Of a stretch of 33,565 nt of DNA, positions 29,094 through 33,565 are shown piece by piece. The first letter of the stretch is position 1. Each line of letters begins with the position of its first letter. The notes under the pieces are model-generated. The model saw only the letters and a program-made list of their open reading frames with translations, was not told where the DNA came from and did not search any database. The translations under genes were made by a program, and so were the position numbers. Source of the stretch: Alphaproteobacteria bacterium (GTDB lineage: Bacteria; Pseudomonadota; Alphaproteobacteria; Acetobacterales; Acetobacteraceae); the NCBI GenBank assembly GCA_026400795.1, contig JAPLOJ010000126.1, positions 1 to 33,565 on the forward strand, given 5' to 3'.

Positions 29094-29795
29094 TCACCCC
29101 TTCGCCCAAGCAATCGCGGCGCGCGCCAGCGCATCAATCGTATCCGCGACGGGAAAAGGCAGCACCGGACCGGCGGCGATACCAAGCGGAATTTCCGTAC
29201 AGCCCAGCACCACTGCCTTGGCACCACGCGCCATCAGGCTGCGCGCCACTTCCGCCAAGGGTTCATAGGATTCCACAAGCTTATTCGCCTTCACCGCCGT
29301 GATCGCTGGCGTGACACGGCTTTGCATTTCCTCATCACTTGGCGTCAGGCATTCATAGCCAAGCCCATCCAGCCTTTGCTGATAAAGCCGCATGGCCAGC
29401 GTGCCCGCCGTGCCCATCACGCCAATGCGCCCGCTGGCCACGCCAAGCCGCTGCAACTCAGCGCCCGCCGCATCCACAATATGCAGAATGGGCAGGCTGG
29501 TCGCGGCGTGCATGCCTTCATACCAGCCATGGGCGGTATTGCAGGGAATGGCGATGGCCCCACAGCCCGCGGCTTCCAGGCCGCGAATGCCGCGCACCAG
29601 CGCCGGCAAGGGGTCCTCTCCGCCCGCAACCCGCGCCGCGGTGCGGTCCGGCACGCGCGGGTCGGACCACAGGATGGTCGGGATGTGGTCCTGATCACGC
29701 TCTGCTGGTGTCAGCAGCGTGAGGCGCTGCATGAAACATGCACTCGCCAGCGGCCCCATACCGCCCAAAACGCCCAGGATTCGAGCATCAGCCAT
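29094..29795 (-). CDS. aspartate/glutamate racemase family protein
   Basis: A 233-residue cytosolic enzyme of the Asp/Glu racemase (YgeA-type) family. It starts ILGVLGGMGPLAS, and carries the two catalytic cysteines in IPCNTAHGWY (Cys85) and VLGCTEIPL (Cys199), so a two-base cofactor-independent racemase mechanism is preserved. The ATG at 29795 gives the standard N-terminus, with AAAGGG upstream; the ORF track's start 16 codons earlier is not needed. It is divergent from the TauE/SafE gene with a gap of 101 bp. Whether it acts on aspartate, glutamate or another amino acid is not clear from the sequence. Confidence 0.92.
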   Translation of the reverse strand: MADARILGVLGGMGPLASACFMQRLTLLTPAERDQDHIPTILWSDPRVPDRTAARVAGGEDPLPALVRGIRGLEAAGCGAIAIPCNTAHGWYEGMHAATSLPILHIVDAAGAELQRLGVASGRIGVMGTAGTLAMRLYQQRLDGLGYECLTPSDEEMQSRVTPAITAVKANKLVESYEPLAEVARSLMARGAKAVVLGCTEIPLGIAAGPVLPFPVADTIDALARAAIAWAKG

Positions 29796-29896
29796 CGCAA
29801 AGCACCCTTTCACAGTCGCCCCAAGGGGTGACGCGTAACCCATGCGCCTCTATGCCACGCCCCTTGAGGACGGCACAGCGCCGCGTAGGACAGCAA

Positions 29897-30685
29897 ATGA
29901 GTTATCTGAACGATCCGCTTTGGCTCGGCGCCTTGGCTTTGGCGATGGCGGCGACGGGCCTGGTTTCCGGCACACTCGCGGGGCTGCTTGGCGTGGGCGG
30001 CGGCATTGTGATTGTGCCGCTGCTGTTCAATGTCTTTCCGCTCTTTGGCATTCCTGAGGCGGTGCAGATGAAGGTGGCGGTGGCGACATCACTCGCCACT
30101 ATTATCCCAACCTCCATCCAATCAGCGCGCAAGCATCGCGCAACTGGGGTGATGGATATGGCGCTGGTGCGTTCCATCTGGCCGAGCATGTTGGCGGGCG
30201 TGGTGGTTGGCACGTTGCTCGCGGTTTATGTGCGGGGCGAAGGGCAGACGGCGATTTTCGCGCTGGTCGCTTTGCTTGTCGCCTTCAACATGGGCTTCAC
30301 CGGGCTTGACTTCAAACTGACCGATCGTGTGCCGGATGGCGCGCCGCGCGCAGCACTTGGCCTCGGCATTGGTTCAGTGAGCGCCATGATGGGGATTGGC
30401 GGGGGCACATTGGGTGTGCCTTTGCTGTCCTTGCTGGGCTACCCCATCCGCGCGGCGGTCGCGACCGCCCTGATCTGGGGCGGGTGGAGCGATCCGCGCG
30501 TGCCGCCCTTTTCACTCGGCTATGTCAGCCTGATCGGCTTTGCGCTGATCGCACCCACTTCCATCATCGCGACACCTTGGGGCGTGAAGCTCGCGCATAC
30601 CATCCCGCCCTTGCTGCTGAAGCGCGCCTTCGCGGTGTTTCTGGCGATCACGAGTGCGCGGATGTTTTGGTCAATCTTTACGTGA
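29897..30685 (+). CDS. TauE/SafE family membrane permease, apparently shortened
   Basis: A 262-residue multi-pass protein of the sulfite exporter TauE/SafE family, which moves sulfite, sulfoacetate or related organic anions. The family glycine motifs appear twice (GTLAGLLGVGGGIVIVPLL at about 25-43 and GIGGGTLGVPLLSLLGYPI at about 173-191), marking the two repeats. After YPIRAAVATA the sequence jumps straight to LIWGGWSDPRVPPFSLGYV. In the family members I recall, a hydrophobic stretch of about 15 residues (SAFGFIIA-type helix) lies here. An in-frame loss is therefore likely and could disable the transporter. The ATG at 29897 has AGGA upstream; the ORF-track start at 29738 lies in the racemase gene. 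Confidence 0.85.
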   Translation: MSYLNDPLWLGALALAMAATGLVSGTLAGLLGVGGGIVIVPLLFNVFPLFGIPEAVQMKVAVATSLATIIPTSIQSARKHRATGVMDMALVRSIWPSMLAGVVVGTLLAVYVRGEGQTAIFALVALLVAFNMGFTGLDFKLTDRVPDGAPRAALGLGIGSVSAMMGIGGGTLGVPLLSLLGYPIRAAVATALIWGGWSDPRVPPFSLGYVSLIGFALIAPTSIIATPWGVKLAHTIPPLLLKRAFAVFLAITSARMFWSIFT

Positions 30686-30885: not shown

Positions 30886-31756
30886 TCAAACTACCCGCCG
30901 AAACGCCTCCGCCGGATACCCCTGCGCAAACAGCAGCGCGCGCAAATCCGCATGATCCACCCGCGCCCGCGCTGCCGCCGCCACCACGGGCTTGGCCTTG
31001 AAGGCAACGCCAAGCCCGGCAGCGCCCAGCATATCCAGATCATTCGCGCCATCGCCCACGGCCAGGGTCGCTGCCAAACCAATCCCTTCTTCCGCTGCCA
31101 GGCGCTTCAGCGTAACCAGCTTGGCATTACGGCCCAGAATGGGCTCACCCACCAGGCCGGTCAGCCGGCCACCCTCATGCAGCAGGGTATTGGAGTAATG
31201 TTCATGAAAGCCGAGCCGTTCTGCGACACGGCCCGTGAAAAAGGTGAAGCCACCGGATACCAGGGCGCAGCGCGCGCCATGGGCGCGCATGGTCGCCACC
31301 AATTCCTCGGCGCCAGGCATCAGCGCGGTCGTGGCCCAGGTACGCTCAAGCGCCTCCAGCGCCAGGCCCTTCAGCATGCCCACACGCTCCCGCAGCGCGC
31401 CTTCGAAATCCAATTCGCCATTCATGGCCCGGCGCGTAATGGCCGAGATTTCTTCCTTGAGCCCAGCCTCGCCCGCCAATTCATCCAGCGTCTCGCTAGT
31501 GACCAAGGCGCTTCCGCCGCCCCGCCACATCCTGCGCGATGGCATCCACGGGGCTGCCTTCCAGCGCCGTGCGCGCCACGCGATCAGCAACTTCCAGCGG
31601 CAAGCCAGCAAAGGGGATATCGGCGGCTTCATGCGCGGCAAGCGGCGCCACGGCGCCGAGTTCAGCGCCCGCTTCACGCAGCGCAGCGCCAACCTTCGCC
31701 TGATGTTCCGGGGCAAGCGCGCCGCGTGGCGCTATCAGGGTCAAAACCTTTTCCAT
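30886..31756 (-). pseudogene. serB: phosphoserine phosphatase, catalytic motif deleted and frameshifted
   Basis: SerB makes the last step of serine synthesis. The N-terminal frame (MEKVLTLIAPRGALAPEH to VAGRRKRLGH, then stop) and the C-terminal frame (VTSETLDELAGEAGLKEEI, ALVSGGFTFFTG, VGDGANDLDML) are both clearly SerB but lie in different frames. At the junction near 31500-31506 the expected segment LLVADMDSTI is absent. The length and phase fit loss of about 26 nt, which removes the nucleophile Asp motif DxDxT and shifts the frame. The ATG at 31756 is 20 bp from the divergent miaA start, a known arrangement. The rest of the gene looks well conserved, so the lesion is recent or an assembly error. 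Confidence 0.88.
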
Positions 31757-31776: not shown

Positions 31777-32742
31777 ATGAGTAAGGATCAACCTCTCTCA
31801 TTATTCGTGGTCGGCCCCACCGCCTCGGGCAAATCCGCACTCGCCCTCGCCATCGCCGAACGCCTCGGTGGCACCATCATCAATGCCGATAGCATGCAGC
31901 TTTATCGGGAACTCCGCATCATCACCGCCCGCCCAAGCCCGGCAGACGAAGCCCGCGCGCCGCATGTGCTTTACGGCGTGCGCGAAGCGGCCGAGGCCGC
32001 TTCGGTGGCCTGGTGGCGCGATGCCGCACTGGCAGCGATGGATCAGGCGCACGCGGCGGGTCGGCTGCCCATCATCTGCGGCGGCACTGGCATGTATTGC
32101 GCGGCGATGACCCAGGGCCTGGCCGCCATCCCGCCCATCCCCGCGACAGCCCGCGAAGAAGCCCGGCGCCTTTTGGCCGAGGAAGGCCCGGCTGCCTTGC
32201 ATGCACGTCTCGCAGCCGAGGACCCTGCCTCCGCCGTGCGGCTCCGCCCCAGTGACAGCCAGCGCATCGCCCGTGCCTATGAGGTCTGGCGCGGCACGGG
32301 CCGAGGCATCGCGGCCTGGCAAGCGGAAGCCAGCGCCGCCCCCGCGCCCTGGCGCTTCGCCGCCATTCTGCTGGACCCGCCGCGGGCTGAACTGCGCGCT
32401 GCCACCGCCCAGCGTTGGGCGGCAATGATCCAGGCCGGCGCGGTTGAGGAAGTGCGGGCCCTACTGGCCCAGGGCCTTGACCCCGCCTTGCCCGCCATGC
32501 GCGCCCTTGGCGTGCCGGAAATCGTAGCCATGCTTTCCGGGCGGCTGACGGAAGACGAGGCCTCCGCCCGCGCCATCCTGGCGAGTGGGCAATATACCAA
32601 GCGGCAAGCCACCTGGTTCCGCCACCATGAATTGGCGCCCCCGGACCGATCCTATCCCATAAATGCGCGATTTGAGGATTTTGCGCAATTTTCGGAAAGT
32701 GAATCGGCCAAATTTTTCGCATTTCTTGATTTTTGCCGTTGA
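31777..32742 (+). CDS. miaA: tRNA dimethylallyltransferase
   Basis: A 321-residue enzyme that adds a dimethylallyl group to A37 of tRNAs reading UNN codons. The P-loop is GPTASGKS (13-20), followed by INADSMQLYRELRI (substrate site), CGGTGMYCAA, the RLRPSDSQRIARAYEV segment and the C-terminal GQYTKRQATWFRH motif, in the family's order. The start MSKDQPLS at 31777 is the normal one; the much longer ORF in the track (from 30868) reads backwards through serB. It is divergent from serB with 20 bp between start codons and is followed by ilvB. Confidence 0.96.
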   Translation: MSKDQPLSLFVVGPTASGKSALALAIAERLGGTIINADSMQLYRELRIITARPSPADEARAPHVLYGVREAAEAASVAWWRDAALAAMDQAHAAGRLPIICGGTGMYCAAMTQGLAAIPPIPATAREEARRLLAEEGPAALHARLAAEDPASAVRLRPSDSQRIARAYEVWRGTGRGIAAWQAEASAAPAPWRFAAILLDPPRAELRAATAQRWAAMIQAGAVEEVRALLAQGLDPALPAMRALGVPEIVAMLSGRLTEDEASARAILASGQYTKRQATWFRHHELAPPDRSYPINARFEDFAQFSESESAKFFAFLDFCR

Positions 32743-32767
32743 CGCCCCCCAGCCGAGGGTCTAACAG
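32739..32767 (+). promoter_or_regulatory. candidate ilvB promoter overlapping the miaA stop
   Basis: TTGACG (32739-32744) and TAACAG (32762-32767) are separated by 17 bases; the -35 box is near consensus and the -10 box is weak. The miaA stop codon lies inside the -35 box. Confidence 0.35.
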
Positions 32768-32778
32768 CCCCTCCTCGC

Positions 32779-32800
32779 CGGCCCTGAACCTTCGGGGCCG
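32779..32800 (+). promoter_or_regulatory. hairpin in the ilvB leader
   Basis: CGGCCC and GGGCCG form a 6-bp stem with a 10-nt loop, 26 bases before the ilvB ATG. No leader peptide rich in Leu, Val or Ile codons and no clear T-run were found, so classical attenuation is not shown. It could be a leader hairpin or a remnant terminator for miaA. Confidence 0.35.
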
Positions 32801-32826
32801 ATTGCTTTTCATGAAGGAAGTCACCC

Positions 32827-33565
32827 ATGTCTGCCGCGACCCAAGCCCCGCCCGCCTCTGAAGCCCTGACCATGTCGGGTGCTGAGGTCGTATTGCGCGC
32901 GCTGAAGGATAACGGCGTTGAGGTCATCTTCGGCTACCCCGGCGGCGCGGTGCTGCCGATCTATGACGCGATTTTCCAGCAAAACGCCATTCGCCACATT
33001 CTGGTGCGCCATGAACAGGCGGCAGTGCATGCGGCGGAAGGCTATGCGCGTTCCACCGGCAAGGTTGGCGTGGTGCTGGTCACCTCCGGACCCGGTGCCA
33101 CCAATGCGGTGACGGGGCTTTTGGATGCGCTGATGGATTCAGTGCCGGTGATTTGCCTGACCGGCCAGGTGCCTACGCATTTGATAGGCAATGATGCCTT
33201 CCAGGAAGCCGATACCACCGGCATCACCCGCCCCGCGACCAAGCATAATTATCTGGTCAAGAAATCCGAAGACCTGGCGCGTGTGATGCACGAAGCCTTT
33301 TATGTCACGAAATCCGGCCGCCCCGGCCCGGTGGTGATTGATCTGCCGAAGGATATCCTGATCAACAAAGCGCCCTATCGGGAAGCGACCACGCAAAGCC
33401 ATCGTTCCTATCGCCCGCGCACGGAACCCGATGCCAAGGCCATCCGCGATGCGGTGCGCTTGTTGAAGCGCGCGCATCGCCCAATTGTCTATGCCGGCGG
33501 CGGCGTAATCAATGCCGGGCCGGAAGCATCGCGCTTGCTGCGCGAATTCGTGCGCATGACTGGCA
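32827..33565 (+). CDS. ilvB: acetolactate synthase large subunit, 5' part
   Basis: The first 246 residues of the thiamine-diphosphate enzyme that condenses pyruvate (or pyruvate with 2-oxobutyrate) in valine, leucine and isoleucine synthesis; the gene runs off the right edge. Seen are GAEVVLRALKDNGVEVIFGYPGG, the catalytic Glu63 in VRHEQAAVHAAEGYAR, SGPGATNAVTGLLDALMDSVP, and QEADTTGITRPATKHNYLV, then RPGPVVIDLPKDI and the start of the central domain (VYAGGGV). AAGGAAG lies 8-10 bases before the ATG at 32827. The regulatory subunit ilvN probably follows outside the window. It is absent from the ORF track because it is open at the end. Confidence 0.96.
   Translation, partial: MSAATQAPPASEALTMSGAEVVLRALKDNGVEVIFGYPGGAVLPIYDAIFQQNAIRHILVRHEQAAVHAAEGYARSTGKVGVVLVTSGPGATNAVTGLLDALMDSVPVICLTGQVPTHLIGNDAFQEADTTGITRPATKHNYLVKKSEDLARVMHEAFYVTKSGRPGPVVIDLPKDILINKAPYREATTQSHRSYRPRTEPDAKAIRDAVRLLKRAHRPIVYAGGGVINAGPEASRLLREFVRMTG

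Follow-up and report, generated by a model that had tools for sequence, protein, structure and literature searches.

A 26-nt gap removing the catalytic motif of serB in an Acetobacteraceae draft genome probably reflects an assembly or sequencing error rather than a loss of serine synthesis

SerB, the phosphoserine phosphatase described by the TIGR00338 model, is a HAD-IB phosphatase, and DxDxT is the nucleophile motif of HAD phosphatases. Pseudogenes born of assembly are also documented. Cooley and Wright 2024 (PMC11017572) give coverage, platform and assembler as their causes, and describe reassembly and simulation studies in which low coverage and the choice of assembler yield many false pseudogenes. 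The serB gene described here is like SerB in that it keeps the sequence and the domain order of that enzyme, and unlike it in that, as assembled, it lacks DxDxT and is frameshifted. It is also like the spurious draft pseudogenes of Cooley and Wright 2024 (PMC11017572), since a conserved gene is broken in one draft that has other breaks. That paper treats frameshifts and internal stops generally, whereas the present case concerns deletions of 20-42 nt.

The gene lies in a window of 33,565 nucleotides, which is the whole stretch of DNA analysed and corresponds to contig C370 of a 3.4-Mb draft genome (450 contigs, 84% complete, 3% contamination). The fragmentation of this source assembly makes it look like a metagenome bin. 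Comparisons were made with a set of 34 congeners. serB occupies 30886-31756 on the minus strand, with its ATG at 31756 and its stop at 30886, and it is read in two frames, where a single ORF of about 298 aa is expected for SerB. The 5' part (31496..31756, minus strand) encodes the N-terminal domain in 86 aa, and its translation in one frame from 31756 to 31496, MEKVLTLIAPRGA...GRRKRLGH*, ends at a frameshift stop just past the junction. The 3' part (30886..31512, minus strand) encodes the HAD-IB phosphatase domain without the nucleophile motif. It is translated as LVTSETLDELAGEAGLKEEIS... to the stop at 30886, from LVTSETLDELAG onward in a frame differing from that of the 5' part. The match of serB to the TIGR00338 SerB equivalog begins at model position 23 and scores 195 bits, above the curated cut-off of 144. 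A full-length congener SerB aligns to the window gene in two pieces, with 89% identity over residues 1-84 and 95% over residues 90-298, and the 3' part is 91-98% identical to closer congeners. Conservation of both halves had been noted in the first-pass annotation of this DNA, and these identities bear it out.

At the junction between the two parts (31505/31506, minus strand), a single clean gap of 26 nt separates the window sequence from all close congeners, and in BLAST comparisons with nearly all of these it is the sole gap in the gene. The missing segment is present in every relative of the multiple alignment and encodes LIADMDSTM in the closer ones, so that its loss both shifts the frame and removes the catalytic DxDxT motif from the junction. 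The deletion is private: no relative with an alignment across this site shares it, and SerB is full length in every congener in which the gene is whole on one contig. The first-pass annotation had described serB as broken by a deletion of about 26 nt that changes the frame and removes the catalytic motif. For the sequence as assembled this is right, as judged from the BLAST gap, the alignment and the two frames, and the size proves to be exactly 26 nt relative to close congeners. The loss of DxDxT likewise stands, and the lost peptide had been given incorrectly as LLVADMDSTI. Because the lost residues include the DxDxT nucleophile, the assembled serB, judged from its sequence, cannot encode an active SerB.

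The remainder of the gene does not look like a decaying one. Outside the gap, dN/dS between the window serB and its congeners is 0.08-0.17, compared with 0.09-0.18 for pairs of intact congeners, and the private changes consist of one amino-acid change and five silent ones. No relaxed selection is thus seen in the remaining serB, so that normal constraint on the gene either persists or ended only very recently; dN/dS would look equally unrelaxed after a loss that recent. On contig C251, serA and serC lie side by side and are both intact. The first-pass annotation had proposed a search of the genome for another phosphoserine phosphatase; among the HAD proteins above the Pfam cut-off, to which this search was confined, none was recognized, and neither a second intact serB nor a relocated DMDST segment was found in the bin. 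A degenerate pattern for DMDST, scanned over the whole bin, gave no match. Two other HAD matches above the Pfam cut-off were considered as phosphoserine phosphatases and rejected, since from their sequences they appear by eye to be phosphoglycolate-phosphatase-like.

A second private deletion lies nearby, in a TauE/SafE permease gene (29738..30685, plus strand; PF01925). This is a 42-nt in-frame gap at 30468/30469, seen against the relatives G013, G024 and G020, and every relative that could be aligned across this position has the segment. The gap takes out 14 aa of a hydrophobic segment. On the other side of serB, miaA (31801..32742, plus strand; PF01715) is intact, and the alignment of 31801-33565 with G024 is ungapped, with no indel. 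The two private deletions are about 1 kb apart, and the roughly 4.5 kb aligned around them is otherwise nearly free of indels; this prompted an audit of further contigs of the assembly. Contigs of the source genome were compared with about 800 kb of G020, and G013 and G024 were compared with G020 in the same way as controls.

In 85.7 kb of the source genome compared with G020, five clean deletions inside genes reached 20 nt or more (26, 42, 21, 21 and 20 nt), versus none in 98.7 kb of the two controls, where one 17-nt deletion in G024 and one 45-nt insertion in G013 were seen. Besides the two deletions in the window, the five comprise a 21-nt in-frame deletion in a thioesterase-like gene (named by eye; C105:2852), a 20-nt frame-breaking deletion in a conserved gene of 762 aa that by eye is acyl-CoA-synthetase-like (C304:8154), and a 21-nt deletion (C92:2673) for which G020 is the sole relative compared, in a small, conserved gene that looks EF-hand-like by eye. 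At C304 and C105 the relatives examined have the missing segment: alignment to 22 of 24 relatives opens a single 20-nt gap in C304, and alignment to 23 of 24 opens a single 21-nt gap in C105, while for the rest the missing length is split over several gaps. Frame-keeping and frame-breaking deletions both occur, three of the five keeping the frame. The chance that all five would fall in the source genome under equal rates is about 0.02 (p), a value that is suggestive and not conclusive because the test was made after the pattern had been seen. Another gene on C92 may carry a single-base frameshift, at about 13680.

Three general sources of deletions were considered for this pattern and set aside. 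Short frame-changing indels occur at 0.43 per kb in the source genome, compared with 0.32 in G024 and 0.22 in G013, an excess too mild to attribute the pattern to general indel noise. Microhomology at the junctions amounts to 0-1 nt, which does not fit replication slippage between direct repeats. Local folding is somewhat above average in stability on at least one strand at three or four of the five sites and not at C105; it is not consistently extreme and gives no firm signal of hairpin-driven deletion.

The 26-nt gap is most likely absent from the genome of the organism, and we consider it probable that it arose as an assembly or library artefact. We infer this from a deletion that is private, clean and accompanied in the same assembly by other private, clean deletions of 20-42 nt in conserved genes, one of them 1 kb away, with none in the controls. 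The sequencing library or the assembler would have introduced a set of spurious deletions of this size into a fragmented draft, and the living cell would probably carry an ordinary, intact and functional serB. The first-pass annotation had left the choice between a real loss and an assembly error open; both are retained here, with the evidence leaning to error. Several points temper this reading. The contrast of five to zero involves small numbers and was noticed post hoc, and the three frame-keeping deletions could also be explained by selection acting on real deletions. De Bruijn assemblers seldom create junctions that lack overlap, so the deletion may be present in at least some of the reads or molecules. 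On the likely view that the gap is an artefact, annotating this draft automatically would produce false auxotrophies and pseudogenes, with about one conserved gene affected in every 15-20 kb; this is relevant to those who use such drafts for metabolic prediction.

The main alternative, which we hold to be a credible but distinctly weaker contender, is a real deletion of very recent origin. The strain, or the population fraction that dominates the assembly, would then be a serB null that needs external serine or glycine, serine derived from glycine, or another phosphatase, and serine auxotrophy would be predicted in this lineage, in contrast to its relatives, for which serine synthesis is expected. 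The clean junction within otherwise well assembled sequence, the lack of a second intact copy in the bin and short-indel rates that only mildly exceed those of relatives are in keeping with such a loss, as is the lack of a serB match in the congeners G017 and G018. A real loss of serine synthesis is nevertheless not favored, because the assembly contains other deletions of this kind, selection on what remains of the gene is not relaxed, and serA and serC are intact; that the other HAD proteins above the cut-off resemble phosphoglycolate phosphatases, and not phosphoserine phosphatases, also speaks against it. Searching the literature for serB loss turned up nothing of use.

Far less probable is that the lineage has a real mutational process, such as homology-free end-joining repair, that frequently deletes 20-40 nt from a genome in early decay. 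The several private deletions with 0-1 nt of microhomology speak for such a process, but the count extrapolates to about 200 deletions per genome, single-base frameshifts in conserved genes are hardly in excess, the genome size is within the range of relatives, and serB itself shows no relaxation. Just as improbable is the specific scenario of a Roseomonas/Neoroseomonas group member whose serB was lost a short time ago, when 20-40-nt deletions independent of homology arose in a burst, and which relies on its neighbors for serine. That the broken gene works through programmed frameshifting or as a split enzyme, as the conservation of both halves might suggest, can be practically dismissed, because the nucleophile motif is absent from the DNA itself, so that a frameshift could not restore it, and the rest of the bin yielded no DMDST sequence either.

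Among the congeners, G017 and G018 gave no serB match, even with G017 being 98% complete (770 contigs); their lack of serB may reflect either a contig gap or a real absence. Congener G025, which has 6% contamination, carries two slightly different full-length serB copies (G025:C1 and G025:C88), probably from two strains in one bin. No RNA families or tRNAs were found in the window. Beside the TauE/SafE exporter gene, 29094-29843 on the minus strand matches the cysteate racemase CuyB (NF052483; 250 bits, cut-off 190), which suggests that the CuyB-like gene and the exporter form a sulfonate-related pair.
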